64,000 nt of DNA from assembly GCF_001905825.1 (NCBI RefSeq), contig NZ_LIVV01000001.1, positions 791,536-855,535 on the forward strand, in the 5' to 3' direction. Positions within the stretch are counted from its first letter, which is position 1; each line of letters begins with the position of its first letter. Position numbers and translations under genes: made by a program. A model generated the notes under the pieces. It saw nothing but the letters and a program-made list of their open reading frames with translations. It searched no databases and was not told the origin of the DNA. Positions 8,698 to 26,053 of the stretch are shown piece after piece. This DNA is from Streptomyces sp. CB02009. GTDB taxonomy: Bacteria; Actinomycetota; Actinomycetes; Streptomycetales; Streptomycetaceae.

Positions 8698-9165
8698 ATG
8701 ACCGTCCCCACCCGCATCCGCACCTCCGCGAAGGCCGTCGTCCTCCACGAGGGGTCCGTCCTGCTCACCCGGAACCTCTGGAACGGCAGCGAGTGCCACT
8801 TCCTGCCCGGCGGGGGCCAGGAGACGGGGGAGCTGCTGCCAGACGCCCTCCGCCGCGAGGTCCACGAGGAGACCGGTCTGACCGTGCGGGTCGGCCCGCT
8901 GCTCTGGGTCCTGGAGGGCTGGACGGAGGACCCCGGAGTGCTCAGTTCGGAGAACTTCCACCGGGTCGAGGTCGTCTTCCTCTGCACCGTGGAGGGCAGC
9001 GCCGAACTCGTCGGCGGAACCGAGCAGGACATCGACCAGATCGGCCTCGACTGGGTCCCGCTGGAGAAGATCACCTCCCTCGGGACCCTGTCGCCCCGCT
9101 ACCGCGCCCATATGGCCCCCCTGGTGTCCGGCGCCGTCCCCCGCGCCGCGTACCTGGAGCGCTAG
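8698..9165 (+). CDS. NUDIX hydrolase
   Basis: A 155-residue NUDIX protein. The Nudix box runs from GGGQETGE to REVHEETGL, matching G-x5-E-x7-REU-x-EE-x-GU and supplying the metal-binding glutamates. It would cleave nucleoside diphosphate-linked compounds; substrate unknown. ATG 8698 is chosen because a GAGGAGAC ribosome site lies nine bases upstream; an earlier in-frame ATG at 8656 lacks one. The stop codon overlaps that of the convergent methyltransferase gene. Confidence 0.88.
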   Translation: MTVPTRIRTSAKAVVLHEGSVLLTRNLWNGSECHFLPGGGQETGELLPDALRREVHEETGLTVRVGPLLWVLEGWTEDPGVLSSENFHRVEVVFLCTVEGSAELVGGTEQDIDQIGLDWVPLEKITSLGTLSPRYRAHMAPLVSGAVPRAAYLER

Positions 9166-9932
9166 CGCCGGGCGGTCTCCGGTTTGCGCGCCTCGATCAG
9201 GGTCCGCGCGGAGTGGGCCACGAACGGACCCTCCGTGCGGATCAGCGCGTCGAGCGCGCGCAGCCGGGGCAGCTGGGACTCGACCGTGAAGCCCGGCACG
9301 ATCCAGATCACCTTGCGCAGGAACCACACGACGGCACCGATGTCGTGGAACTCCATCCGCAGCCGCTCGGAGCGGAGATCGACGATCTCCAGACCGGCGG
9401 CGCGCGCCGCCGCGCTCTCGTCGTCGGGGTGCCGGTGCCGGGCCGCCTCCGGCTGGGGCCCCAGGAAGAACTCGACCAGTTCCCAGACGCTGGCGGGCCC
9501 GACGTGCTGGGCGAGATAGGTGCCGCCCGGCAGCAGGACGCGGGCGATCTCCGCCCACCACACGGTGGCGGGGTGGCGGCTGGTGACGAGGTCGAACGCC
9601 GCGTCGGAGAAGGGCAGCGGAGGCTCGTCGGGATCCGCGACGACGACGGCTCCCCTCGGGTGCAGCACCGCGGTGGCCCGGGCGAGGTTGGGGGGCCACG
9701 ACTCGGTGGCCACCATCGTCCGCGGCAGCGTCGGCACACCGGCGAGCACCTCACCGCCGCCCGTCTGGACGTCGAGGCCCGCGGAGGCACGGGCGAGCCG
9801 TTCGCCGAGCACCCGGTGGTAGCCCCAGGAGGGCCGCTGCTCCGTCGCCCGGCCGTCGAGCCAGGAGAAGTCCCAGCCGTCGACGGACGCCTCGGAGGCC
9901 TCCGCGACGAGTTCTTCGAAGGAGGATGTCAT
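9162..9932 (-). CDS. SAM-dependent methyltransferase
   Basis: A 256-residue class I methyltransferase. LDVQTGGGEVLAG replaces the usual E/DxGxGxG SAM loop, DPDEPPLPFSDAAFDLV covers the acidic motif and post-motif II, and ARVLLPGGTYLAQHVG is motif III. The region after residue 150 (WELVEFFLG, MEFHDIGAVVWFLRKV) is typical of actinobacterial methyltransferase-11 proteins of unknown substrate. ATG 9932 has a GGATG-poor leader but starts the conserved FEELVAEA helix; seven extra residues would be added by an upstream in-frame start. It converges on the NUDIX gene with a shared TAG region. Confidence 0.82.
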   Translation of the reverse strand: MTSSFEELVAEASEASVDGWDFSWLDGRATEQRPSWGYHRVLGERLARASAGLDVQTGGGEVLAGVPTLPRTMVATESWPPNLARATAVLHPRGAVVVADPDEPPLPFSDAAFDLVTSRHPATVWWAEIARVLLPGGTYLAQHVGPASVWELVEFFLGPQPEAARHRHPDDESAAARAAGLEIVDLRSERLRMEFHDIGAVVWFLRKVIWIVPGFTVESQLPRLRALDALIRTEGPFVAHSARTLIEARKPETARR

Positions 9933-12815: not shown

Positions 12816-13727
12816 TCAGGAACCGAGCGGGCAGGTGCCCCGGTACTCGTCGATCGTCAGACTCGGCCGCGGCAGCGGGCACAGGAACTGGTCGTAGCGG
12901 GTGTCGTCGTCGACGAACCGCTTGAGCCAGGAGAGGCTGTACTTCGCGATCGTCGTGTTCGACGAGTTCGGGGTGAAGTGCGTGGCCCCGTTGAGTTCCA
13001 GGTACGCCTTGTCGAGGGAGCCGGGCAGGCTCTCGTAGAACGGCTCGGAGTGGGTGGCCACGGGGGCGATGGTGTCGCCGTCCGCACCGATGACGAGCGT
13101 GGGCGTGGTGATCTCGGGCCAGGTCTTGTCCGTGTTCCACGCGGTGAGGGGGACGGCTGCCCTGAGCGACGGACGGCTCTTTGCGGCTTCGAGGGTGCCT
13201 CCGCCACCCATCGAGTGCCCCATCACACCGAGCCGGCCGGCGTCGACGCGCCCCCGCACGGCGCTTCGCTGGGTGAGGTAGTCGAGCGCGGCGAGGAGCT
13301 GCCGCCCCCGGCTGTCGGGCTGGTCGACCGTGGTCAGGGTGTCGATGGTGAACACCACGAAGCCCTGCGAGGCCAGCCTCGGCCCGAGCCACGCGACCGA
13401 GGACTGGTAGGCCGTGAACCCCGGCGAGATCACCACCGCGCCGAACGTGCCGTCACTCGTGGACGTCGGGTAGTAGATCGTTCCGCCCCCGAAACCGCTG
13501 ACGGCGAGCGAGGAGACGGCCGTCTCGCCGACGGCGTACGGGCCGCGCAGCGCCTCGACGCTCGACGGGGTGGGCGCGGGGCCGCGCTCGTACGGGTTGT
13601 CCGCGGCAGCAGCCGCGCTCGCGGAGTCGGAGGCGGCAGCGGAGGCGGAGCCGGCGGCCTGGGCGCCGGGGGCGAGCAGCAGGGTCAGACAGGCGGCGGC
13701 CATGGCCGCGCCGAGGTGTCGTGTCAC
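12816..13727 (-). CDS. Secreted lipase/polyester hydrolase (cutinase-like)
   Basis: A 303-residue secreted alpha/beta hydrolase very similar to Streptomyces exfoliatus lipase and Thermobifida cutinases. A signal peptide ([15 protein letters not shown]) and an Ala/Ser-rich stretch precede the mature start NPYERGP (about residue 44). The triad is Ser172 (GHSMGG), Asp218 (GADGDT) and His250 (ATHFTPN). The oxyanion-hole loop SPGFTAYQ and the C-terminal Cys pair (FLCPLP ... GTC) that forms a disulfide are present. It should hydrolyse triacylglycerols and possibly polyesters such as PET or PLA outside the cell. GTG 13727 has a GAGAGGACGA site. Confidence 0.93.
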
Positions 13728-13855
13728 GACGGAGTCGTCCTCTCGTGTCGTGGGGTGGCGGCCGCCCGGGCGTCCGGGCGGCGGCCACGCCGTGAACTGG
13801 CCCGGCCACTGTCCGGCCGCCACGTCCCACGGGCATCGGCGGAATCGCCGGTCTT

Positions 13856-13971: not shown

Positions 13972-15369
13972 TCATCGGGTCGACGTCCCCGGGATCCGGC
14001 GTCCGACCCGGACCGTGACCGTCTTGGGCCGCTGGTACTCCTGGAGGGCCAGCGTGCTCAGGTCGGTGCCGTGCCCGGAGGCACCGCGGCCGCCGTGCGG
14101 GAGCTCCGCCGTCTGCACGAGGTGGCAGTTGACCCAGGTCTCGCCCGCGTCCAGCGCGGCCGCCAGCTCCAGGCCGGTCGTCAGGTCGGAGGTCCACACG
14201 CTCGCGGCCAGGGCCTGCGGGACGCCGTTGGCCAGGGCGAGCGCGGCCTCCACCCCGTCGGTCCGCTGCACGGTGAGGAGCGGGCCGAACACCTCCTCGA
14301 CGACCGCCGGGTCGTCGTCCGGGAGGTCGGCGAGCACCCGCGCCGGGCGCCAGTGCCCCGCCTCCTCACCCGGTGCCGGCGCGATGTCCGCGACGATGTC
14401 CCGCTTGGCGTCGGACGCGGCGACCAACCGGTCGTAACGCTCTGCCTGGTCGGTGTTGTTGAGCGGGCCGAAGTCCCGCCCCGCCACCCGGGCGGCCATC
14501 GCCGCCGTCAGTCCGGCGACGGCGGCCTCGTAGTTCTCCGGCAGGGTGATGACCCGCGCCGGAGCGGCGCAGCTCTGCCCCGCGTTGTACGTGGCCGCGT
14601 CGGCCAGCGACTCCCAGGTGTCGGCGGGCGCGTCCGGGAGGACGATCGCCGGGGCGTTGCCGCCCAGCTCCAGACTCACCCGCCGCGTCCCCGCGCGGAC
14701 CGCCACGTCCTCCCCGGCCCGGCCGCTGCCCGTGAACGCCACCATGTCCACCGCCGCCCCGACGAGCAGCCTGCCCGTCTCCCGGTCGCCGGGGAGATGC
14801 GCGAGGACCCCCGGGCCCAGGGCGAGCCCGGCGTGCTCCGCGAGGAGATCCAGGCTGTCCGGAGTCGTCTCGGCCGGCTTCGCCACCACCGTGTTCCCGG
14901 CCGCCAGGGCCGGTGCACACCGCCAGGCCGCCATGAGCAGCGGATAGTTCCACGGCACGACCACCCCCACCACACCGACGGGCTCCCAGCGCACCCAGCT
15001 CTCGTGGCCCGCCACCAGCAGGCCCGCCGCCGGTGCCGTACGGGTCCTGGCCGCCGTCGCGAAGAAACGGAACAGGTCCGCGACCTGCTCGATCTCGCCG
15101 GCCGTCTCCGACTCCGGCTTGCCCGTCCCGGCCGCCTCGCGGACCGCGTACTCCGCCGCGTGCTCCTCGACCAGACCCGCGAGCCGGTCGAGGCGCCGGC
15201 CCCGCTCCTTGGGCGTCAGGGCATTCCAGCCGGGCAGGGCGGCACGCGCGCCGGCCACGGCGGCCCGTACCTCGGGCAGCCGGGACAGCACCGCCGTGCC
15301 CCGCGGCGCCCCGGTACGCGGGTCGGTCAGTTCGGTCACGGCGGGGGAGCCGGTTGCGTCGCTGGTCAT
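13972..15369 (-). CDS. Aldehyde dehydrogenase family protein
   Basis: A 465-residue NAD(P)-dependent aldehyde dehydrogenase. [17 protein letters not shown] and NTVVAKPAE form the cofactor pocket, SLELGGNAP carries the general base Glu, and [11 protein letters not shown] carries the nucleophilic Cys. EEVFGPLL is also typical. It is nearest in character to aminobutyraldehyde/betaine aldehyde dehydrogenases. The catalytic core lacks the usual F/Y-TGST form (it has [11 protein letters not shown]). ATG 15369 follows AGAGG. It lies 33 bp downstream of the asparagine-synthetase-like gene on the same strand and is probably co-transcribed with it. Confidence 0.9.
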
Positions 15370-15402
15370 GCGGGGCCTCTCGTCCATCGGGGTGGTGCGG
15401 GT

Positions 15403-17178
15403 TCACACGTCGTACGACCTCAGCCAGAGCTCCAGGGTGAGCACCAGCCACAACTTGCCGCCCTGCCGGGGCAGCAGCGCGCCCTCGCCCCGCAGCCAGG
15501 ACCGGACCGTCTCCGGGCGGAACAGGCCGCGCCGCAGCGACCTGGGCCCCAGGAGGAGGTCCTGGCCGAGGTCGCGGAGCGGGCCCGTCAGCCACTGCTG
15601 GACCGGGACCCGCATCCCGCTCTTGGGGCGATCGACCACCGTGCCGGGCAGCAGGTCGCGTACCGCCTCCTTGAGGATCCACTTCTCCGCCGTGCCACGG
15701 AGCTTGAGGGACGGCGGGGTCGCGAAGGCGTGGTCGACGACCGACCGGTCGAAGAGCGGCGAACGGCCCTCCACCCCCTGCGAGGACGTCAGCCGCTCCA
15801 CCTTGGTGAGGATGTGGTGGGCGCCCTTGGTCCGCAGGTTGCAGTGGAGCAGCTGGTTGAGGAAGTGCCCCATCCGGTACGGGCTGCCGCCGGCGGCCGT
15901 CAGATACGGTGCCACGTGCCGCTCCAGGGGCGGGGCGTCCCGCAGGGCCTCCAGCGCCGACGCCGTCAGCAGCTCCGGCAGGTCCGTCCAGCACTTGCGG
16001 TACGAGCGGAGGTACGCGGTCGCCCGGTCCTCGTCCCAGGGCGCGCCCGGAGTCCGGTGCATCTCCTGGACCAGCATGGGCAGGTTCTTCGGTCCCCCGA
16101 AGACGGGGTCCCCGCCCTCGCCGTTGAGGACCACGGAGGCTCCGTCGGCGGCCACGGCCTCGGCGAGCATCAGGTTCGGCACGGTCAGCGGATCGCCGAC
16201 GGGGCTGTCGAGCAGCGCGGCCGCCTCGGCGAGACGGGCGGCCACGGCAGCGCCCGAGACGTTCAGGACCCGGTGGCGCGTGCGGCAGTGCGCGGCCACC
16301 AGACCCGAGTAGCCCAGCTCGTTCGGCAGGTCGTCGCCGAAGCTGATCGAGTAGGTGTGCACCGGGTGGCTGTGCAGCTTCGCCGCGAGGGCCGTGACCA
16401 GGGAGCTGTCGATCCCGCCGGAGAGCAGCACGGCGGCCGGCTCGGCGGCGGGCAGCCTGCTCGCCGTCGCCTGCTCCAACAGGCCGCGCAGCGCGAGGAC
16501 ATGGCCGCGCGGGTCCTCCGGCCGAGGGTCCTCGACGCGCTCCCGGGGCTCCCAGTGCACGGTCTCGGTGGACGTCCCGTCCCGGTGCAGCCGGAGCACC
16601 CGGCCGGGCAGCACCTCCCGCACACCGGTCAGCAGGGTCTCCTCACCGGGCAGATAGGCGAAGGTGAGGAAGGAGCGGACCGCGGACAGGTTCATCGAGG
16701 TGCCGAGCGCGGGCCAGCGGCGCAGCGTGCGCAGCGAGGTGGAGGCCGCCCAGGCGGCGTCGGCCCGCGCGTAGAACAGGGTGCGGGCACCGACGTGGTC
16801 ACGGATCAGGACCAGGTCGGGGCCGTCGAGCACGGCGAGCACGAACATCCCCTCGGCCAGCGCCACCCCCGCGTCCCCGAGCAGCGCCCAGCAGTGGAGC
16901 AGCAGTTCGCCGTCCGCGCAGTCGGACGGCGGGGGAGCGGCCCGCTCCGCGAGCGCGGCGAGGAGCACCGCGCGGTTGTGCAGGGTGACCTCGCCCACGG
17001 CCGTCCGCCCGTGCGCGGTGAACGGACCCTGGGCGCGGCCGTGTTCACCGGACAGCAGCGACAGCTCGGCGCCGGGGACCTTGACCGGGACATGGCCGGG
17101 GCCGAGGGCGCCCATCGCGTCGAGATGGCCGCGTGCCTGCCCGGTGGTGGCGGCCAGACAGGCGCTCAGACGTGCCAC
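15403..17178 (-). CDS. Asparagine synthetase-like ligase without glutaminase cysteine
   Basis: A 591-residue protein. Residues about 1-190 resemble the class II glutamine amidotransferase fold, and residues 230-590 are an asparagine synthase domain with the pyrophosphatase loop LLSGGIDSS. Later NGEGGDPVFGG and VEGRSPLFDR match AsnB. The protein begins VARLSACLA, so the Cys that must follow Met1 in true AsnB is absent. No alternative start gives Met-Cys-Gly. It could use free ammonia, or catalyse amide formation like beta-lactam synthetase or lasso cyclases. The GTG start is fixed by GAAGGAG six bases upstream. It is the sixth gene of a minus-strand cluster. Confidence 0.85.
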   Translation of the reverse strand: MARLSACLAATTGQARGHLDAMGALGPGHVPVKVPGAELSLLSGEHGRAQGPFTAHGRTAVGEVTLHNRAVLLAALAERAAPPPSDCADGELLLHCWALLGDAGVALAEGMFVLAVLDGPDLVLIRDHVGARTLFYARADAAWAASTSLRTLRRWPALGTSMNLSAVRSFLTFAYLPGEETLLTGVREVLPGRVLRLHRDGTSTETVHWEPRERVEDPRPEDPRGHVLALRGLLEQATASRLPAAEPAAVLLSGGIDSSLVTALAAKLHSHPVHTYSISFGDDLPNELGYSGLVAAHCRTRHRVLNVSGAAVAARLAEAAALLDSPVGDPLTVPNLMLAEAVAADGASVVLNGEGGDPVFGGPKNLPMLVQEMHRTPGAPWDEDRATAYLRSYRKCWTDLPELLTASALEALRDAPPLERHVAPYLTAAGGSPYRMGHFLNQLLHCNLRTKGAHHILTKVERLTSSQGVEGRSPLFDRSVVDHAFATPPSLKLRGTAEKWILKEAVRDLLPGTVVDRPKSGMRVPVQQWLTGPLRDLGQDLLLGPRSLRRGLFRPETVRSWLRGEGALLPRQGGKLWLVLTLELWLRSYDV

Positions 17179-17252
17179 GAACTGCTCCTTCTCCTGGTGT
17201 TGCCGGTCGTGCTGCGGTGCGGGGTGCCGCCGGTCGGGCAGCGGCGCGGGTG

Positions 17253-17349
17253 GTGCCGGTCGTGCCTGGGCCTGGGTGGTGCCGGTTGTGCCGGGGCCTG
17301 GGTGGTGCCGGTTGTGCCGGGGCCTGGGTGGTGCCGGTTGTGCCGGGGC
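17253..17349. repeat. 3.7 copies of a 26-bp tandem repeat
   Basis: A 26-bp unit beginning GTGCCGGTTGTGCCGG and ending GCCTGGGTG is repeated at 17253-17278 (two mismatches), 17279-17304, 17305-17330 and partly 17331-17349. The array lies between the asparagine-synthetase-like gene and the membrane-protein gene. It would be transcribed within the operon as an untranslated spacer. Confidence 0.92.
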
Positions 17350-17375
17350 GCGGGTCGGGGGTCGTGGGGCGCGCC

Positions 17376-17963
17376 TCAGCCGAAGTCGTCGTCGTTCCAG
17401 GCGTCCCCGTCGCCGTCCCAGTGCGCGTCCCAGTCGTTCCCGTCGGCGCTGCCGTCCCCTGACCCCGACCCGTCGGTTCCCTCCGACCCGGCGTCGGAGT
17501 ACCCCGAGCCACCGCTGTCGCCGCCTCCGCCGCCGCTGGACTGCTGGGCCTGCGCCTGCTGCTGCCGCAGGGCCTCCTCCTGCTCGGGGGACATGCTGAG
17601 CGGCGGCAGCTGGGCGGCGGTGACGGCGAGGGTCGCCACCCCGAGGCCCGCGAGCAGGACGCCCATCCGGCCGCCGAAGGAGCTCCGGTTGACCAGCACC
17701 TTCTCGCCGCGCGCCCACAGGGTGCGGCCGTAGCCGATGTCACGGGCGTAGGTGACGGTGCCGTCGGCGAGGCTGCGCTTGATGATCCGGTCGCCGAGCA
17801 GCTCGTCGGTGCCGGAGGCGCCGCGGTTGTCGTGCCAGTGCACGAGGTGCGGGTGGCCGGACGTGCGGCGGCGCCACTCCTCCAGGCCGTTCTCGTAGCG
17901 GCGGTGGACGGTGCCGTCGGCGAGCAGTTCGTCCGCGTAGCCGATCTCTTCGGGACGGTTCAT
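17376..17963 (-). CDS. Membrane protein with Trp/Asp/Gly-rich C-terminal tail
   Basis: A 195-residue protein of unknown family. Residues 1-95 contain two related elements around LADGTV (ELLADGTVHRRYENGLEEW and RSLADGTVTYARDIGYG). One hydrophobic helix (GVLLAGLGVATLAVTAA, about residues 102-118) follows. The remaining about 75 residues are low complexity: a Gln-rich part, then Gly/Ser, then Asp/Trp (DWDAHWDGDGDAWNDDDFG at the very end). It sits between the third wHTH-TOPRIM-like gene (43-bp gap) and the Cys-less asparagine-synthetase homolog. The acidic tail could be a substrate of that ligase, but this is only a guess. ATG 17963 starts the frame. Confidence 0.7.
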   Translation of the reverse strand: MNRPEEIGYADELLADGTVHRRYENGLEEWRRRTSGHPHLVHWHDNRGASGTDELLGDRIIKRSLADGTVTYARDIGYGRTLWARGEKVLVNRSSFGGRMGVLLAGLGVATLAVTAAQLPPLSMSPEQEEALRQQQAQAQQSSGGGGGDSGGSGYSDAGSEGTDGSGSGDGSADGNDWDAHWDGDGDAWNDDDFG

Positions 17964-18006
17964 GGTGTGCGTACCTCGGGTCGGTGGGAGGGGGCGCCGG
18001 GACGGG

Positions 18007-18990
18007 TCACGCGGCGGGCCAGGTCATGAAGCCGGCTCCGCGCAGCCCGCGCAGACCGCTCCAGAGGGAGTCGCGGGGCGGTCGTGGCCCCCGCGTGAGG
18101 CGCAGGACCGTGCGCAGCAGCCGGTCGGGAGGCACGGCCGCCACCTCGGCGAACCGTCCCTCCGCCAGCCAGTCGGCCTCCCGCGGCCGCAGCGCCGCCG
18201 GCAGCGCGGCGAGGGCGGCGGGACCGGGCGCGGGGCCCCGGCCGGTGGGCAGCCGCAGGGCGGCCGCGTGCCGGGGCGCCAGGCCGAGGGACACCACCCG
18301 CACTCCGGGCACCGGCCCCAGACCGGACCGCACCTGGGCGGGGAGGGCGAGCCCGGCCGGGCTCGCGTCGTGCAGGACGTACACGGTGGCACCCTCGGCC
18401 CGCCGCAGGGCGGCGAGCAGTCTCGGGTCGAGGGGCAGGGCGTCCTCGGCGGCGAACACCGGGCAGGCCGCCTCCAGATGGATGTGGTTGGCGAGCAGCA
18501 TCCCGGCGATCGAGCGGTCCTGGCACATCAGCAGCCGGGGCAGCCCGTAGTCGTAGACATCGGGTTCGGAGTACGCCTCCGAGAACTGCGACAACTCTGG
18601 CAACTCCGATGACTCCGACGGCTCCGGCCTCTCCGCCCGCTCGCGCGGCCGGCGCGGGCCCACCCGCGCGCCGGACTCGGGCAGCGGCGGCAGCAGGCCC
18701 GGTACGGTCTCCCGGCCGCGCGCCTCCAGGGCGCGGGTGAACACGGGTAGCCGCAGGACGGGGGCAGGAGTGCCGGGGACCCGGCCCCTCAGGAGCGTCG
18801 AACCGGGGGTCAGGACGCGGCAGGTCTCGTAGTACAGCTGGCGCTCGGTGAAGCGCAGCCCGCCGGGCGCACCGGCGCGCGCCGCGGCCGCGGTGATCGC
18901 CCGGCCGGCGACCCCGGCGGGCCGGCCGGAGGGCAGTCCCGTCCCGGCGGTCGGGCCGGAGCGCGGAGGCGGGAGGTGTCGCTTGCTCAT
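18007..18990 (-). CDS. Topo VI-A/Spo11-like wHTH-TOPRIM protein, soluble paralog (putative)
   Basis: A 327-residue protein, third of three related neighbours. LRFTERQLYYETCR (residues 45-58) resembles the winged-helix segment of Topo VI-A-like proteins, where RQLYY carries a conserved Tyr. Later VYVLHDASPAG (about 203-213) occupies the place of the TOPRIM D-x-D strand. The C-terminus ends GFMTWPAA, a signature shared with the two upstream paralogs, together with a W-L-A-x-G-R-F motif. No zinc ribbon or membrane helix is present. A Ser/Glu-rich stretch lies at 120-145. Its ATG overlaps the upstream stop (ATGA). Family assignment is inference from motifs. Confidence 0.6.
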   Translation of the reverse strand: MSKRHLPPPRSGPTAGTGLPSGRPAGVAGRAITAAAARAGAPGGLRFTERQLYYETCRVLTPGSTLLRGRVPGTPAPVLRLPVFTRALEARGRETVPGLLPPLPESGARVGPRRPRERAERPEPSESSELPELSQFSEAYSEPDVYDYGLPRLLMCQDRSIAGMLLANHIHLEAACPVFAAEDALPLDPRLLAALRRAEGATVYVLHDASPAGLALPAQVRSGLGPVPGVRVVSLGLAPRHAAALRLPTGRGPAPGPAALAALPAALRPREADWLAEGRFAEVAAVPPDRLLRTVLRLTRGPRPPRDSLWSGLRGLRGAGFMTWPAA

Positions 18991-20090
18991 CCGGCCGTGG
19001 TGCCTTTCGTACGGGACGGGTCGCCGGCCTTCGGCGGCGCCTCGGCCGGCCAGGTCAGGAAGCCGTCGGTGGAGCGGGGTTCGGCGGGGCGGGCGGACAG
19101 GGCCCGCTCCACGGCCGCCGTGACGACCGCTTCCAGGCGGGCCGGCGGGACGGCGGCGAGCGGACTCCAGCGGCCCCCGGCCAGCCACGCGGCGTCCTCC
19201 TCGGACAGCCCCGCGACCGACCGGAGGTCCGCGGCGTCCACCGTGGACGTGGTCGAGATCCGGTGCACGGCATCCCGGCGGGTCCTCACCGCGGACACCG
19301 GGAGCCCGGCGTCCACCACGACCCGGCCGGGGTGGGCGAGGCGCAGCAGCGGGGCGAGCAGCGCTCCCAGGGCGCTCGCGTCGTGGAGCACCACCACCGG
19401 GAGCCCGGCGGGGAGGTCCGCCAGCGCCTCGTGCGCGGCGGCCGGTTCGGCCTCGACGAGCCGTGCCTTCAGCCGGGCGGGGACGGCGTTGGCCCGGAGG
19501 AACACCGCGACCGCGTGGTCGGTGCACAGGACGACGGCCTCGCGTCGGCCGCCGCCGGACTCACGGGGTGCCGGCACGCGCGGGTCGTCGTCCACCACAC
19601 CCGGTGGCAGCTGCTCGTACACGGTTCGCCAGGGACCGGTCATCGCCTGCCGGAACGCGGACTCCGAGGGTGTGATGCTCGACCAGGCCCTGACGGCGGG
19701 CCTGTACCGCAGGGACGACGCCACCACCACGACGACGACCGCGGCGACGACGGCGACCGCGCCCGCCACGCCGTGGACGAGCTGGCCGGTGACGAGGAGG
19801 AGAAGGGCGAGGGGCGCGGCGACCAACCACCGGACGCCGGGCCTGATCCCGTGTGCGGGCTTCGCGCCCCAGAGGACGGTGGACACCCGGGAGAGGTACC
19901 AGAGCTGGGTGAGGGTCACCTTCAGGCGTCCGCCGTCGGTGGCCCGTTCGGCGATCCGCCGGATCCGCAGATCGTGCATGCCGCGGCCGTGGACCTTCGG
20001 GTCGAGCGCGAACCGGTGCGCGCAGCGTGCGCACGTCTGCCCGGTCCGTTCCCTGGCCGCCAGCTGGGCGGCGCAGTGCGGGCAGATCAC
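18987..20090 (-). CDS. Membrane-anchored zinc-ribbon wHTH-TOPRIM-like protein (paralog 2)
   Basis: A 367-residue protein beginning with a zinc ribbon (CPHC at 3-6, CARC at 20-23). DLRIRRIAERATDGGRLKVT leads to QLWY (62-65), aligning with RQLYY of the downstream paralog. Two long hydrophobic segments occupy about residues 85-130. The C-terminal half has VVVLHDASALG, a WLAGGRW motif and GFLTWPAE near the end. The order is the same as in its upstream neighbour, so the pair arose by duplication. The GTG start overlaps the upstream stop (GTGA) and the stop overlaps the next ATG. A nucleic-acid-related role at the membrane is inferred only. Confidence 0.62.
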   Translation of the reverse strand: MICPHCAAQLAARERTGQTCARCAHRFALDPKVHGRGMHDLRIRRIAERATDGGRLKVTLTQLWYLSRVSTVLWGAKPAHGIRPGVRWLVAAPLALLLLVTGQLVHGVAGAVAVVAAVVVVVVASSLRYRPAVRAWSSITPSESAFRQAMTGPWRTVYEQLPPGVVDDDPRVPAPRESGGGRREAVVLCTDHAVAVFLRANAVPARLKARLVEAEPAAAHEALADLPAGLPVVVLHDASALGALLAPLLRLAHPGRVVVDAGLPVSAVRTRRDAVHRISTTSTVDAADLRSVAGLSEEDAAWLAGGRWSPLAAVPPARLEAVVTAAVERALSARPAEPRSTDGFLTWPAEAPPKAGDPSRTKGTTAG

Positions 20091-21172
20091 CGGCCACCCA
20101 CCGGGTCCGGTCCCGCGGCCTCGGGCCAGGTGAGGAAACCGAGGTCCGCGGCGCGCCGCCGGTCGGGGTCGGCCCCGTGCGACACCTGCCCGGCGACCCG
20201 GTCGACGACCGCGAGCAGCCTGGCTGGCGGCAGTCCGACGAGCGGGAACCGCCAGCCCTGCCCGAGCCACTTCAGCTCCTCGGGGGTGTACGTCCCCAGG
20301 GCGGTGAGGATCCGCAGGTCCGCCGGGCCGGGCCGCCGCCGCGGGTCCCGGTAGGGAACGGCCTGGGGGAGGGACCGTACGGTGCGCAGCGGCGGTCCCA
20401 CGTCGACGACGGTCCGGCCCGGCAGGGCCTCCCGGACGCCCCGGACGAGCAGTTCGCCGTCCGCGTCGGTGTCGTGGAGCACCAGCACCGGCCCCTTCGA
20501 GGGGACGGCCGCGGCCTCCGCCGGAGTCCGGACCACCGCCAGGCCGTGGCGGGCGGGCAGTCCGTCGGCGACGAGGAACGCGACGACGGCACGGTCGGGG
20601 CAGACCAGCACCCCGGTGGCGCCTGCCGCGCCCGCCGCACCCGCCGGGTCTGCTTGGCCGGCCGCACCCGCCGTGCCCGTGTCGGACGCCGCGGTGTCCA
20701 GCACACCGGGCGGCAGCCCCCCGTACACCGACCGCCAGGGGGAGAGCACCAGGGTGGGGAAGCCCTCCCGGCCGACCGGCGGTATGCCCTTGCCCGCGCC
20801 CATCACCCGTGCCACGAAGATGCCCAGGCCGATGATCAGCAGGGCGCCGGAGGCCAGCAGCAGCGCCGGTGCCTCGGCGAAGAGGGCGACGACGGTGACG
20901 AAGCCGGCCCCCGCGAAGGCTCCGCCCAGGCAGCCCTGGCCGAAGTCGCTGTCCCGGAGGCGCTTGCGGGAGAGGGCGTACCAGAGCTGGTCGGGGACGA
21001 TCGCGATCCGGCCCCCGTCGGTGAGGGCGGTGGTGATCCGGCGGACCCGGAGGTCGTTGAGACGGAGCGGGTTGGTCTTGGGGTCCAGCGCGTAGGTGCG
21101 CTTGCAGTGGGTGCAGCGGTTGCCGGTGCGCTCCTTGCGGAGCAGGTTGCGTTCGCAGTGCGGACAGATCAC
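20087..21172 (-). CDS. Membrane-anchored zinc-ribbon wHTH-TOPRIM-like protein (paralog 1)
   Basis: A 361-residue protein with a zinc ribbon (Cys3, Cys6, Cys20, Cys23), then DLRVRRITTALTDGGRIAIV and QLWY (62-65). Two transmembrane helices follow at about 80-98 and 102-121. An Ala/Gly linker (160-187) leads to VLVCPDRAVVAFLV and to VLVLHDTDADG (229-239), the best preserved acidic D-x-D-x-D-G strand of the three paralogs. It closes with WLGQGW and GFLTWPEA. The gene overlaps both neighbours by GTGA. I read it as a degenerate Topo VI-A/TOPRIM arrangement tethered to the membrane. Confidence 0.62.
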   Translation of the reverse strand: MICPHCERNLLRKERTGNRCTHCKRTYALDPKTNPLRLNDLRVRRITTALTDGGRIAIVPDQLWYALSRKRLRDSDFGQGCLGGAFAGAGFVTVVALFAEAPALLLASGALLIIGLGIFVARVMGAGKGIPPVGREGFPTLVLSPWRSVYGGLPPGVLDTAASDTGTAGAAGQADPAGAAGAAGATGVLVCPDRAVVAFLVADGLPARHGLAVVRTPAEAAAVPSKGPVLVLHDTDADGELLVRGVREALPGRTVVDVGPPLRTVRSLPQAVPYRDPRRRPGPADLRILTALGTYTPEELKWLGQGWRFPLVGLPPARLLAVVDRVAGQVSHGADPDRRRAADLGFLTWPEAAGPDPVGGR

Positions 21173-21915
21173 CTGGGCACCTCCAGCGCGGTCGCCACCC
21201 GGCGCAGCCGGGCGGCGAGCCGCTCGCGGACCGTGGTGGCGGCGATGCCGTGGACCCGTTGGGCGCGCTCGATGTCGCGGAGCTCGGCGGCCAGGGCCCG
21301 GTAGTCCGTGACGGGCTCGGCGGCGAGGGCGGTCCGGCCGCCGGAGCCGCCGCCCGTGGACCGGGCCCGCCGCTCGGCCTCGGCCGCGGTGATCGCGTAG
21401 TCCTCGTGGTCGATCCCGTAGCCGGTGTTCGCGGCGAGGATGGTCAGCGGGTCGTCGCCGCGGTTGGCGAAGGAGTGCGGCATCATCTCCGGGATCCGGA
21501 TCAGCATGCCCGGCGCGAGCGGGACGTCGGTGACGCGCCCGCGGGCCTCGTCGTACAGCCCGCAGGAGGCATGGCCGAGGCTGAGGACGAAGTGCTCGCC
21601 GCCGTGCGCGTGCGGGGTGAAGGCACTGCGCGGGCCGACCACCCCGAGTTTGACGGTGGCGTTCGACGGCCGCTCCGGCGAGGTCCCCGCGTCCCCGACC
21701 AGGTAGTGGGCGAACTGCCCGTCGTCGATGAACCGCAGGAACTCCCGCTCGGGCCCGAGCTCCCGACTGCCGTCCCGGTCGGCCAGCAGGATGCCGCCGT
21801 CGGGCCTCAGGTGGTACAGCTCCACTCCACCGGGCAGATTCCCGGCCACCCGGCCCGGCAGGTCGTCCGGTACCCGGTCCTGCGCTCGTCCCTGTCGTAC
21901 GGGTCGTACCGCCAT
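21169..21915 (-). CDS. Cupin domain protein
   Basis: A 248-residue protein. The cupin core has FTPHAHGGEHFVL as motif 1 (three His) and PGMLIRIPEMMPHSFANRG as motif 2, enough for a metal centre. The N-terminal 70 residues (PGGVELYHLRPDGGILL, EREFLRFIDDGQFAHYLVGD) and a C-terminal coiled region rich in Ala/Arg/Glu (200-245) flank it. ATG 21915 has a GGGGGAG site. Its stop overlaps the GTG of the next gene. It is the first gene of the tightly overlapping cluster and may sense or bind a small ligand; an enzymatic role cannot be excluded. Confidence 0.78.
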   Translation of the reverse strand: MAVRPVRQGRAQDRVPDDLPGRVAGNLPGGVELYHLRPDGGILLADRDGSRELGPEREFLRFIDDGQFAHYLVGDAGTSPERPSNATVKLGVVGPRSAFTPHAHGGEHFVLSLGHASCGLYDEARGRVTDVPLAPGMLIRIPEMMPHSFANRGDDPLTILAANTGYGIDHEDYAITAAEAERRARSTGGGSGGRTALAAEPVTDYRALAAELRDIERAQRVHGIAATTVRERLAARLRRVATALEVPR

Positions 21916-21935
21916 CGCGCCTCCCCCTGACGCCC

Positions 21936-21957
21936 GTTGTACGTGTTCACGCACAAC
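21936..21957 (-). promoter_or_regulatory. 22-bp imperfect palindrome upstream of the cupin operon
   Basis: GTTGTACGTG and CACGCACAAC form arms around a TT centre with one mismatch. On the minus strand the half-site TACAAC resembles a -10 element, 21 bases upstream of the cupin ATG. A repressor binding here would control the whole cupin/TOPRIM-like operon. Confidence 0.5.
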
Positions 21958-22063
21958 CACCGCATGGTAGAGCGCTGATCGCCAACAGGGGGAGTACCCG
22001 GGGCGACTCTCGGGGGACCCGGAGGTGAACGGCCGCCCCGCCGACCGGCCGCGCGTCCCTCGG

Positions 22064-22158
22064 CCGGGGCCGGTCTCGCATCCTGCTGCCGGCCTCGCGT
22101 CCTTCCGCCGGGGCCGGTCTCGCATCCTGCTGCCGGCCTCGCGTCCTTCCGCCGGGAC
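22064..22158. repeat. 44-bp direct repeat, two copies plus a partial
   Basis: A 44-bp unit starting CCGGGGCCGGTCTCGCATCC occurs at 22064-22107 and again at 22108-22151, with a partial third copy after it. It lies in the gap between the cupin operon promoter and the end of the acyltransferase gene. Confidence 0.85.
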
Positions 22159-22175
22159 CGTTCCCGCGTCCCCGC

Positions 22176-22847
22176 TCAGTGCTGCCGGTCGGCCGCCGCC
22201 GGCTCGCCGAGTGCCCCGGCAGCCGTCCGCCACGCCGCCGTGACGGCGCCGTGGGCCAGCTGCGTCGCGACGGTCACATCGGCGGGCAGCCGAAGCGGCG
22301 CCCCGATGTGGACGTGCAGACACGGTCTGCGGACCGGCGCGGTGAGCACCCCGGCGATCTGATTCACGCGCCCGCCCGACGTGATCCGCCGGGCACCCGC
22401 CTGACCGATCGGTACGATCGGACGCCCGGTGGCCTCGGCGAGCCGCGCGAGCCCCGTACGAAACGCCTCCGGCGGGTTCTCCGCGGAGTCCGGACGCGTC
22501 GGGATGCGGCCCTCGGCGTACAGCATCACGTGCCGCCCCGAGGCCAGCGCCACCGCCGCGTGGTCGAGGGCGGCGGAGGCATGGGCCGAGCCGCGGTGGA
22601 CGGGCACATGGCCCTCGCGGGTCAGGGCCCGGCCCAGCACGGGGATGCGCCACAGCCCGGCGGTGGCGAGCAGCACCGGCTCGACGGCGAGCCGCTTGCG
22701 GAGCGCGGCGAGGACGAGTGCCGGGTCGGCCGTCGAGGTGTGGTTCACCACCAGGATGCTGCCGGGTTCGAGGCGTGCCCCGGGATCGGCGGTGACGGTC
22801 AGTCGTCCGAAGAACGGGACGACGCGGGCGGCGAGACGGCTGAGCAC
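22176..22847 (-). CDS. 1-acyl-sn-glycerol-3-phosphate acyltransferase-like protein
   Basis: A 223-residue PlsC-type acyltransferase. The catalytic H-x4-D is in NHTSTADPA, the second block is GHVPVHRG, and the third is YAEGRIP (normally EGTRS, here EGRIP), followed by PIVPIGQAG. It should transfer a fatty acyl chain to a lysophospholipid or another hydroxyl acceptor at the membrane. The GTG start follows CAGGGGG. It is read in the same direction as the cupin cluster but with a 260-bp gap. Confidence 0.85.
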   Translation of the reverse strand: MLSRLAARVVPFFGRLTVTADPGARLEPGSILVVNHTSTADPALVLAALRKRLAVEPVLLATAGLWRIPVLGRALTREGHVPVHRGSAHASAALDHAAVALASGRHVMLYAEGRIPTRPDSAENPPEAFRTGLARLAEATGRPIVPIGQAGARRITSGGRVNQIAGVLTAPVRRPCLHVHIGAPLRLPADVTVATQLAHGAVTAAWRTAAGALGEPAAADRQH

Positions 22848-23054
22848 GAGGGGCCCCCTGGCTCCGAGGACGAGGCGCTGACCTGTTCATCGTGCGAGAC
22901 CGGGCGCTCCCTCACATGAGCACGCGTACTCAGCTCGCGTACCCAAGCGCCATGAGTGCGGGGCGCGGTGGCGGGTGGCCGTGCGGGGCGGTCTACGCTG
23001 ATGGCTCGACAGCCGGCACGGCGCAGGCCGGACCAAGGAGGGAGGGGAACGGCG

Positions 23055-23462
23055 GTGGGACGTCCGACGCGACAGCTCCTGGCCCTCCTGCCCGCGATGC
23101 TCTGCGCGGTCTGGTCCCTCCTCGTCCTCCCCGCGGCGACCGCGCAGCCGACGGACCTCACGGCCGCGACCGGCCCGGCTCCGACCAGGACCGTGGTGCC
23201 CGCCGCGTCCCAGGGCGCAGGACCCCGCGCCTCTGCGCCCGAGCCGCACTTCGCGCCCACCGCCGTCGTACGGCTCCCCGCCGCCGTCGAGAACCCCGTA
23301 CGGCTCCAGGCCCTGCCCGCGGGCACGGCCCCCGTGCCCGTCGACCTCTTCCTCCCGGCGCGCGGCGCCCTCGCGGGCGACCCCCGCCAGGAGCGCGCCC
23401 CGCCCGGCACGGCCCACGACCCCCGGGCCCCTCGCGGCCCTCCCTCCACCCGGCACAGCTGA
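23055..23462 (+). CDS. Small secreted or membrane-anchored protein
   Basis: A 135-residue protein with an N-terminal hydrophobic stretch (LLALLPAMLCAVWSLLVLPAATA) that reads as a signal peptide or membrane anchor. The rest is Pro/Ala/Arg-rich and low in recognisable structure. GTG 23055 is chosen because GGAGGGAGGGG lies just upstream; an earlier in-frame ATG at 22956 would place about 33 basic residues before the signal. No family recognised. The next gene, secDF, is 146 bp downstream. Confidence 0.6.
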   Translation: MGRPTRQLLALLPAMLCAVWSLLVLPAATAQPTDLTAATGPAPTRTVVPAASQGAGPRASAPEPHFAPTAVVRLPAAVENPVRLQALPAGTAPVPVDLFLPARGALAGDPRQERAPPGTAHDPRAPRGPPSTRHS

Positions 23463-23608
23463 CGTTTCCCCGCGTCGCCGTCCGGGCCATCGGCATGCCC
23501 TCGGACCGGTCCCCGACGCGGATCCATCCGTACGTCCGGCACGGCCGGTGCGCGCTCCCCCTTCCGCGTGGACGCGTGCCGTCGCCGTGCGCCGCCCGTG
23601 GAGTAACC

Positions 23609-26053
23609 GTGTCCTCTCGTTCCGCCTTCTGGCGTGCGCTGCTCGCCCTCGCCGTCGTCGCCCTGTCCCTCTGGATCACCCTGACCACCCCACCCCGCCT
23701 CGGACTCGACCTCCGCGGCGGGACCCGTATCGTCCTCCAGACCGAGGACGGGCCCACCGCTCGCGCCGACGCCGCGGCCACCGACCGCGCCGTGGAGGTG
23801 CTCCGCAAGCGCGTCGACGGGCTGGGCGTCGCCGAACCCTCGCTCGCGCGCTCCGGCGAGCGCCGTATCGTCGTCGAACTCCCCGGACTCCGGGACCCGC
23901 GCGAGGCCGCCGAGGTCATCGGCCGCACGGCCCAGCTCGCCTTCCACGCCGTCAAGGGCGAGGCACAGCAGCCGGCCGGACCGGAAGGATCGGCGGGACC
24001 AGCCGCACCGGAAGGATCAGCCGGATCGGAAGGTGCGGCCGGTCCGGAAGCATCTGACGGATCCGACGGATCCGACGCATCGCCCACGAGCAACGGGACG
24101 GCGCGGGTCCTCGCCGACCCCGACGCGCCCGGCCGCTTCCTCGACCTCGCCGCACCCGACCTCACCGGCGACGGCGTCAAGAGCGCCGAGGCCGTGCTCG
24201 ACACCACGAGCGGCCGCGGCTGGACGGTCGACCTCGCCTTCCGCGACGGCGCCGCCGCCACCTGGGCCCGGCTGACCGGAGCCGCCGCCTGCGCGGCGCC
24301 CGGAGACCCGGCCCGCAGGGTCGCGATCGTCCTCGACGACCGCATCGTCTCCGCGCCCGCCATGCAGACCGGCGTCCCGTGCGGCGCGGGCATCGGCGGC
24401 GGCTCCGCGCAGATCACCGGCGGATTCTCCGCACAGGACGCCCGCGACCTCGCGGCCCTCGTCCAGGGCGGCGCCCTGCCGGTCCCCGTCACGACGATCG
24501 AGCAGAGCACCGTGGGACCGACGCTCGGCGCCGAGGCGATCCGGGCCAGTGCCTGGGCCGCCGTGATCGGCCTCGCCTGCACCGGCGTCTTCGTGATGGT
24601 GGTCTACCGGCTCCTGGGCGTCCTCGCGACCGCCGCGCTCCTCCTCTACGGACTGATCTCGTACGCGGCGGTGGTCGCCCTCGGCGCCACGCTCACGCTC
24701 CCCGGCCTCGCCGGATTCGTCCTGGCCATCGGCATCGCCGTCGACGCGAACGTCCTCGTCTTCGAACGCGCGAGGGAGGAGTACGCGGCACTGGGCCGGG
24801 CCGCGACCGGACGCGATCTGCGACGGCCGCTGACGACGGCGTTCGGCAAGGTGTGGAGCGCTGTCGCGGACTCGCATGTGACCACCCTGCTCGCGGCGGG
24901 CCTGCTGTTCGTCTTCGCCACCGGCCCCGTCAAGGGCTTCGGCGTGACCCTCGCGATCGGTGTCGTGACCTCCCTGCTCACCGCGATGGTGATCACCCGA
25001 CTCCTCGCCGACCTCGCTCTGCGCCTGCCCGTGGTGCGCCGGCGGCCGGCGGTCACCGGCATGGCGGGACTCGGCCGGCTGCGCACCCGGCTGACCCGCC
25101 GGGTGCCGCGCCTGATGGTCCACCGGCGCCGTTGGCTGCTGTCCTGCGCCGGACTCCTGATGGTGGCCCTCGCCGGAATCGGCGTCCGGGGCGTGGAGTT
25201 CGGCGTCGAGTTCACCGGTGGCCGGGTCGTCCAGTACACGGCCGAGCGTCCCGTCGACGCGGACGCGGCGCGCGCGGCGATCGCGGAGGCAGGCTTCCCC
25301 GACGCCGTCGTCCAGACCACCGGCGACAGCGACGTGTCGGTACGCGTCCGGGAGAGCGGCGACGGCGAGCAGCGGGAGATCCGGGAGGCTCTCACCCGGG
25401 TCGCCGGCCCGGTGGAGGTGGAGCGCGACGACCTGATCGGGCCCAGCCTGGGAGGCGAGCTGCGCACCCACGCCCTGCTCGCGCTCGGACTGGCGGTCGC
25501 GGCCCAACTCCTCTACCTGACCGTGCGGTTCCGCTGGACGTACGCGACGGCGGCGGTGGCCGCCATGACCCAGGACGTGCTGCTGGTGATCGGTCTGTTC
25601 GCCTGGCTGGGCAAGCCGGTGGACAGCGTCTTCCTGGCCGCGCTCCTGACGGTCGTCGGCTACTCGGTCAACGACTCGGTGGTCGTTCTCGACCGGCTGC
25701 GGGAGCTGCGGCGGCGGGGCGGGGGCGTCCCGCTGGCGGACCTCGCCGACCGGGCCGTCGCCCAGACCCTGCCCCGGACGGTGAACACCGGGATGGGCGC
25801 TCTCTTCGTCCTGGTCGCGCTCGCCTTCCTCGGCGGTGACTCGCTCACCGACTTCTCCGTCGCGCTGCTCGCCGGAGTCGTGCTCGGCATGGCGTCCACG
25901 GTGTTCACGGCGATGCCGTTGGCGGTGGCCCTGGAGCACAGGAACCCGGCGTCGGCCGCGCCCGGTGCTGCGGGCGGCCGTTCCGGCCCCGGCGGGCGGC
26001 AGCGGGCGGGCGGTGCCGGCGTGGACCGGGACCGCTCGGGGGCGGTGGTCTGA
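23609..26053 (+). CDS. secDF: SecDF fusion protein-export membrane protein
   Basis: An 814-residue fusion of SecD and SecF. The SecD half has the first membrane helix (residues 8-26), LGLDLRGGTRIVL, and DDRIVSAP and GGSAQITGGF of the periplasmic P1 region, then five membrane helices with GIAVDANVLVFERAREE. The SecF half has GVEFTGGRVVQY and, near the end, VVGYSVNDSVVVLDRLRE. It uses the proton gradient to pull exported proteins across the membrane. A Gly/Ser/Asp/Ala-rich insertion (about 117-160) interrupts P1 and is unusual. GTG 23609 is the start nearest the first helix. Confidence 0.93.
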   Translation: MSSRSAFWRALLALAVVALSLWITLTTPPRLGLDLRGGTRIVLQTEDGPTARADAAATDRAVEVLRKRVDGLGVAEPSLARSGERRIVVELPGLRDPREAAEVIGRTAQLAFHAVKGEAQQPAGPEGSAGPAAPEGSAGSEGAAGPEASDGSDGSDASPTSNGTARVLADPDAPGRFLDLAAPDLTGDGVKSAEAVLDTTSGRGWTVDLAFRDGAAATWARLTGAAACAAPGDPARRVAIVLDDRIVSAPAMQTGVPCGAGIGGGSAQITGGFSAQDARDLAALVQGGALPVPVTTIEQSTVGPTLGAEAIRASAWAAVIGLACTGVFVMVVYRLLGVLATAALLLYGLISYAAVVALGATLTLPGLAGFVLAIGIAVDANVLVFERAREEYAALGRAATGRDLRRPLTTAFGKVWSAVADSHVTTLLAAGLLFVFATGPVKGFGVTLAIGVVTSLLTAMVITRLLADLALRLPVVRRRPAVTGMAGLGRLRTRLTRRVPRLMVHRRRWLLSCAGLLMVALAGIGVRGVEFGVEFTGGRVVQYTAERPVDADAARAAIAEAGFPDAVVQTTGDSDVSVRVRESGDGEQREIREALTRVAGPVEVERDDLIGPSLGGELRTHALLALGLAVAAQLLYLTVRFRWTYATAAVAAMTQDVLLVIGLFAWLGKPVDSVFLAALLTVVGYSVNDSVVVLDRLRELRRRGGGVPLADLADRAVAQTLPRTVNTGMGALFVLVALAFLGGDSLTDFSVALLAGVVLGMASTVFTAMPLAVALEHRNPASAAPGAAGGRSGPGGRQRAGGAGVDRDRSGAVV

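Follow-up and report, generated by a model that had tools for sequence, protein, structure and literature searches.

In a 64,000-nucleotide stretch of Streptomyces sp. CB02009 DNA (contig NZ_LIVV01000001.1, positions 791,536 to 855,535; the whole stretch is called the window, and coordinates refer to it), a gene cassette was found that may encode a membrane-tethered DNA-handling complex. Its core consists of three paralogous genes (A, B and C), a gene for an acidic-tailed membrane protein (D) and a gene for an AsnB-like synthetase. Tentatively, with a confidence somewhat short of even, the three paralogs, which combine a predicted TOPRIM fold with the motif order of Topo VI-A/Spo11, are proposed to form this complex, which would be switched when the AsnB-like ligase modifies the acidic tail of D. 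A previous reading of the window, made without database searches (the sequence-only reading), had proposed an uncharacterised multi-gene system, and this agrees with the present data: the core gene order is kept across loci, and no described counterpart of the cassette as a whole was found in the libraries and open-access literature searched. The parts belong to known superfamilies, and it is their combination that has no described counterpart.

All genes of the cassette lie on the minus strand, at the positions proposed earlier. A (20087-21172, 361 aa) contains a zinc ribbon, half of a winged helix, a predicted transmembrane hairpin and a TOPRIM-like domain. B (18987-20090, 367 aa) is a paralog of the same architecture; it was placed by its alignment row and its sequence homology to the C profile (99.8%), and its putative membrane stretch comprises residues 81-133. 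C (18007-18990, 327 aa) is a soluble paralog with a TERQLYY helix and a TOPRIM-like domain. D (17376-17963, 195 aa) has a domain of beta-hairpin repeats, one predicted transmembrane helix and an acidic tail ending in DDDFG, and the AsnB-like synthetase (15403-17178, 591 aa; Pfam Asn_synthase, E 8.6e-75) is without the glutaminase cysteine. The translational overlaps suggested for the upstream cupin gene and the three paralogs are present in the window sequence, each with a length of four bases (cupin/A GTGA, A/B GTGA, B/C ATGA). Pfam, NCBIfam and PADLOC yielded no match above cut-off or noise for any of the proteins A to D, and a PDB sequence search with the C and A profiles gave nothing below E 0.07.

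The shared motifs that had been noticed in the three tandem genes are real and conserved. The profiles of 28 diverse C and 29 A/B proteins could be aligned across 245 columns (99.8%, E 7.7e-30), and the RQLYY helix of C fell on the QLWY helix of A. The CxxC...CxxC zinc ribbon was present in 101 of 105 A/B open reading frames, and weak Pfam matches of the 29 A/B relatives were mostly to zinc ribbons (among the best 25 of 66 families). The two membrane helices attributed to A and B are supported by a hydrophobic stretch at about residues 72-143, long enough for two helices, in all 29 A/B proteins, and the predicted model of A has two helices there. The predicted hairpin occupies the alignment gap directly after the QLWY helix, a position taken in C by the wing region, and A can thus be read as a winged helix in which a membrane hairpin stands in for the wing.

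The closest structural matches to the TOPRIM half of the A and C models were Topo VI-A, followed by JetD-type nucleases, so that a TOPRIM domain of the Topo VI-A type is predicted from structure comparison. The superfamily assignment made in the sequence-only reading (Topo VI-A/Spo11-like) is supported, and neither of the outcomes named there as refuting it (a predicted structure lacking winged helix plus TOPRIM fold, or an unconserved gene order) was observed. The TOPRIM half is backed by model comparison, while the winged-helix half is indicated by its motif and predicted helices only (in C at residues 24-40, 49-60 and 81-91), the listed structural alignments covering the other half. The landmarks of C are R50-Q-L-Y-Y54, Q/E157, D208-A-S210 and G-R-F-A-E282. 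Those of yeast Spo11 are Y135, E233, D288 and E386 (of KKAEM), which have catalytic roles. The excerpt of PMC13040014 describes Y106, a clasp of R102 and E342, and the metal residues E202, D254 and D256 for Methanosarcina mazei Topo VI-A. The second tyrosine of RQLYY in C follows the arginine by four residues, as in R102/Y106 of that protein and R131/Y135 of yeast Spo11, and the intervals between the subsequent landmarks measure 103, 51 and 74 residues in C versus 96, 52 and 88 in the M. mazei protein as described in that excerpt. The E342 stretch of M. mazei reads GKKAEQQA (chain 9o0g, an E342Q variant, has Q there), and GxxAE is thus a pattern common to both proteins; by this pattern, the clasp glutamate would be present in C only and not in A or B.

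Among the 28 diverse C proteins, R50 and Y54 were found in all 27 ungapped rows, D208 and S210 in 26 each, and E282 in all 28; residue 157 was Q in 13, E in 11 (Prauserella, several Nocardia, Actinokineospora, Frankia locus L071 and others) and another residue in four. In the 66 Streptomyces-type C proteins, R50 was kept in 65 and Y54 in 62. D234 of A/B was invariant (29/29), and residue 236 was S in 17, G in 6 and D in 4, whereas in the A-only alignment it was D in 60 of 69. According to the excerpt of PMC10123090, MksG requires E236 and D279. Plant SPO11-2 carries DxN (as stated in the part of PMC11302465 consulted), and an altered second aspartate alone does not exclude function. Because the second aspartate of DxD is a serine in C and the glutamate is often a glutamine, cleavage by C is probably weak, conditional or lost, in which case the complex would mainly hold or bend DNA. 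C as an active nuclease was dropped as a candidate on account of the incomplete triad.

D has conserved N-terminal beta-hairpin repeats, one hydrophobic segment, a PPxxLSPEEEEELR stretch, a variable G/S/D linker and a W...DDFG end, in agreement with the Trp/Asp-tailed membrane protein described before. The last tripeptide was DFG in 75 of 77 loci (HFG in L079, DSG in L077), and 14 of 26 relatives had a weak match to Tcp10_C (best E 5.1e-5). The AsnB homolog had been called Cys-less; the catalytic Cys2 of the glutaminase domain is indeed absent, and is not conserved in relatives, but other cysteines are present. The synthetase motifs SGGIDSS and LNGEGGDP are retained, SGGxDSS is conserved, and the Asn_synthase domain has its PP-loop. 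The closest solved chain was beta-lactam synthetase (1jgt, E 3.6e-19). Since a carboxylate-activating ligase is encoded next to a protein whose acidic end is fixed, this arrangement suggests that the AsnB-like protein is an enzyme and D its substrate.

In the proposed mechanism, the TOPRIM domains would pair by analogy with Topo VI-A dimers, and A (and B) would in this way hold C at the membrane; C would supply the Tyr/Arg pair together with the majority of the active-site positions. Aspartate (or C-terminal) carboxylates of the DDDFG tail of D would be adenylated and then amidated or cross-linked by the AsnB-like enzyme, which would change the state of the complex, and the cupin might sense or feed this switch. 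A more specific version is doubtful: a Spo11-like DNA-handling machine, whose membrane hairpin replaces the DNA-binding wing, would be held in check by the acidic, DNA-like -DDFG tail and freed when an ammonia-using AsnB-type ligase converts tail Asp to Asn.

Several results weigh against the proposed complex and its switch. Foldseek itself gave no match at E 0.001 or better. The C profile aligned with DUF2399 in the same register and scored 27.8 (maximum of 29 column shuffles, 21.8), but the hhalign probability of this match was 6%; with Spo11 the register was the same and the score of 12.8 was within the shuffles, as were the scores of the A/B profile with DUF2399 (20.2 versus 22.7) and Spo11 (14.5 versus 16.3). 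In view of these weak profile scores, the evidence for membership in Topo VI-A/Spo11 is structure and motif order rather than sequence score. The metal site of Topo VI-A/Spo11 (Glu plus DxD) is not preserved as a set in either C or A/B; with the TOPRIM acids incomplete in this way, the A, B and C proteins are not filed as members of that family. The Streptomyces-type C proteins have Q157 without exception (66/66), F for Y54 in 4 of 66, and at position 282 E in 49 and Q in 17. The 29 A/B proteins have the arginine at -4 in one case, Pro in 17 and Glu in two at the glutamate position, and Pro in all at the clasp position. The main problem for tail modification is that the charges flanking the hydrophobic segment of D favour a tail outside the cell, so that an ATP-using ligase could modify D only before export. 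The link between the AsnB-like protein and D is, moreover, drawn solely from neighbourhood, co-occurrence and chemistry.

Among 5.8 billion proteins, at least 439 homologs of C and at least 140 of A were detected at E 0.001, which are lower bounds because only about 8,000 candidates were scored for each. Apart from one stray label, the names among the best 120 C and best 120 A matches were 'hypothetical' or 'uncharacterized'. With the queries counted in, the alignments comprised 66 rows for C and 69 for A, and the profile of 28 C proteins gave 418 matches, among those listed mainly from Streptomyces and Nocardia. When named genomes were scanned with the C alignment, 83 loci were confirmed, and 80 of these were kept. 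The actinobacterial loci include Streptomyces, Actinacidiphila, Kitasatospora, Nocardia, Prauserella, Actinokineospora, Actinophytocola, Amycolatopsis, Gordonia, Frankia and Wenjunlia; beyond these genera there were three loci from Chloroflexi and one contig of a Verrucomicrobia bin, for which mis-binning is possible. The gene order is thus conserved in three phyla, one represented by a single metagenome bin.

A or B was present in 74 of the 80 loci (75 with L036, found by tblastn), D in 77, the AsnB-like gene in 77 and the window-type cupin in 41, and the four-gene core was complete in 73. Because the contigs of L019, L037, L071 and L076 start less than 130 bases from C and that of L039 stops at C, the genes missing there may lie off the contig. 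Real exceptions were L055, which has a degenerate C alone, and L073, with A and C and neither D nor AsnB within 11.5 kb. The typical order is (cupin)-A-(B)-C-D-AsnB-(aldehyde dehydrogenase); A precedes the cupin in L021, L030 and L034, and is on the other strand in L045. In L045, A lies downstream, the hydrophobic segment of D is altered and C carries TERQLYF. L021 (locus positions 8866-9501) and L030 (8381-8938) have an extra A-like piece after the cupin, matching the C-terminal part of A and without a readable zinc ribbon, in addition to the full A upstream.

In 61 related genomes, C, D and the AsnB type (at least 890 bits and at least 75% identity; the next AsnB homolog scored 184 bits) were each found in the same seven genomes, and in 296 genomes across the phylum C was found in two and D in three, the third a weak match at model positions 91-157. 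Streptomyces appeared in both actinobacterial clades of the AsnB tree, which points to transfer, although support at the base of one clade was only 0.62. The distances of A, C, D and AsnB co-varied (Spearman 0.78-0.86, 59 loci), which linkage alone would also give. No homolog of C was found among 50,697 phage records, none of 24 pattern matches in viral contigs was confirmed, and one of 72,556 plasmid records had a homolog, on a 1.6 Mb replicon. Foldseek of C against viral models gave no match at E 0.001; TOPRIM primases were at ranks 1, 2 and 5 among unrelated rows, and no viral Topo VI-like protein was named among the best 50. The family PF04406 was detected in none of 21 related genomes and in four of 14 control genomes, all archaea. 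The cassette is patchily distributed and has likely spread horizontally. In some single-contig Streptomyces genomes it lies near a chromosome end (G031, 8.37 of 8.4 Mb; G015, 0.21 of 8.2 Mb; L017, at most about 60 kb from the end); L060 departs from this pattern, with the cassette at about 2.3 of 7.9 Mb.

The first gene of the operon encodes a cupin protein (21169-21915, 248 aa), whose Pfam Cupin_2 match (E 6.2e-6, 26.3 bits) is below the cut-off of 27.2. By tblastn, the window-type cupin was found in 41 loci, a second family in 27, a third in two (with Pfam Cupin_2 matches) and none in 10; counted by open reading frames, the corresponding figures were 41, 25, 2 and 12. The second family, from Nocardia-type loci, had no Pfam match (two members) or NCBIfam match, only noise in the PDB and no hhalign link to the upstream cupin, and is cupin-like by motif only. 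With one of the three families in 70 of 80 loci and two families in no locus, the design of the cassette appears to include a single cupin or cupin-like gene. The aldehyde dehydrogenase suspected earlier was recovered with Pfam Aldedh (E 2.5e-105), although its gene (13972-15387) falls outside the range of 15403-21957 first assigned to the operon. It is an accessory gene of the Streptomyces-type cassette: in 35 of 77 loci the gene directly after AsnB is a strong homolog (a contig end cuts two further loci), and since none was found in Nocardia-type cassettes it is not core. It is followed by a PETase-like hydrolase gene (12816-13823, minus strand; NCBIfam NF051441, bis(hydroxyethyl) terephthalate hydrolase, 549 bits against a curated cut-off of 520), as also in L002, L003 and L020.

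The promoter palindrome noted earlier is an imperfect 22-mer, GTTGTGCGTGAACACGTACAAC, at 21936-21957 (minus strand) upstream of the cupin gene, with nine of 11 pairs. By its pairing alone it would not stand out, since the 64 kb contain 51 such 22-mers. In eight close Streptomyces loci (L002-L008 and L020), however, the best-matching site differs at 2-5 positions and is located 34-43 bases ahead of where the cupin is estimated to start, and in five of these loci it forms 10 of 11 pairs; other cupin loci have at least eight mismatches. From this conservation in place the palindrome is likely to be an operator. A sigma-70 promoter scan found none. Three tandem 44-nt repeats (22045-22176) lie between an acyltransferase gene and the cupin, and by eye the interval from D to the AsnB-like gene (17180-17375) is taken up by GC-rich tandem repeats, each about 26 nt long, and a long open reading frame (22892-26053, plus strand) has the look of a fused SecD/SecF. 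No Rfam family reached its gathering score in the window.

Other functions of the cassette were considered. A defence system, in which a membrane-anchored TOPRIM nuclease acts against plasmids or phages and is gated by D and the AsnB-like enzyme, is unlikely. The patchy spread (seven of 61 relatives, two of 296 genomes across the phylum), the two Streptomyces-containing clades and the presence of JetD of Wadjet among the nearest TOPRIM relatives speak for it, as does an AAA_15 ATPase gene between C and D in one Chloroflexi locus (382 aa; L076 1049-2197, Candidatus Viridilinea bin); AAA_15-type ATPases partner TOPRIM domains in OLD-type nucleases. However, PADLOC gave no match for A, B, D, AsnB, aldehyde dehydrogenase or cupin, and for C only Cas11e at noise level (E 0.028), and the nuclease triad is incomplete. 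Among 134 flanking proteins from 52 of the 80 loci, 31 PADLOC models matched at E 1e-10; of the 25 listed, mad2 matched four proteins and the other 24 (21 of them PD-T4-6 models) one each, and because nearly all of these matches were single there is no clear defence-island signal. The commonest flanking Pfam family was TetR_N, with six proteins (among the best 25 of 153 families). A Wadjet variant was dropped, as no SMC partners were seen: the core genes adjoin one another, and no further gene cluster was present in more than 10 of 80 loci. The JetD family model (DUF2220/DUF2399) gave no match in the 28 C proteins at E 10 and was not among the best 25 of 66 Pfam families for the 29 A/B proteins.

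The loss of the triad, strongest in A/B, would also fit TOPRIM-like proteins that are dead scaffolds in a metabolic or signalling cassette, with a small amide being made or sensed by the cupin, the aldehyde dehydrogenase and the AsnB-like enzyme. The single cupin per locus, the aldehyde dehydrogenase after AsnB and the operator-like palindrome favour this explanation, but the finding of no dehydrogenase in Nocardia-type cassettes and the retention of R50, Y54, D208 and E282 in diverse C proteins, which argues for a functional site, make it rather doubtful. Least probable is that D is the precursor of a ribosomally synthesized and post-translationally modified peptide, with the AsnB-like enzyme closing its Asp/Trp tail into a ring in the manner of lasso peptides. 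This would account for the conserved acidic end of D and for the resemblance of the AsnB-like protein to beta-lactam synthetase, and lasso and albusnodin cyclase models match it, far below their cut-offs. A, B and C would however be left unexplained, and the best conserved part of D is its N-terminal domain of about 100 residues, not a short leader. Such a cluster was dropped because no conserved leader peptidase or exporter was seen: beyond the cassette and cupin-like genes, no gene cluster occurred in more than 10 of 80 loci, and MFS-like genes, recognised by eye in 10 loci, lay in scattered places.

The Topo VI-A/Spo11 superfamily is known for topoisomerases, meiotic break makers and plasmid-defence nucleases. 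If the proposed DNA-handling complex is real, a membrane-fixed branch that operates with an amide ligase and a tail protein would add to the known uses of this superfamily. The near-invariant DFG end beside a ligase makes tail modification directly testable. Heteromeric Spo11-like complexes that contain degenerate subunits would then also have a bacterial model in the cassette, comparable to the DxN-bearing SPO11-2 of the consulted part of PMC11302465.

Compared with Topo VI-A/Spo11, the cassette proteins share the TOPRIM fold of the predicted models and, in C, the RxxxY, Glu/Gln, Asp and GxxAE motifs in the same order and at similar spacing. They differ by DxS in place of DxD, by Gln for Glu in Streptomyces and by the zinc ribbon and membrane hairpin of A/B, and no GHKL B subunit was recognised in the cassette (loci, not whole genomes, were searched). 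JetD/MksG of Wadjet and MksBEFG, with DUF2399, gave the second-best structural matches, with the same TOPRIM register in the weak profile alignment of C to DUF2399; unlike these systems, the cassette has no conserved SMC-like (JetABC) partner genes, C has no Pfam match to these families and the acidic residues are incomplete. With beta-lactam synthetase and other non-glutaminase AsnB homologs, the AsnB-like protein shares a synthetase domain with SGGxDSS and the loss of Cys2, but its GEG retains the Glu that is replaced by Tyr in beta-lactam synthetase, and its gene is linked to D and not to a known antibiotic pathway. Although they differ in ligase fold and have no TOPRIM proteins, the ATP-grasp enzymes YgiC/YjfC with YgiB/YjfM would share the logic proposed for the cassette, in which an amide ligase is placed beside a membrane protein with a fixed C-terminal end.

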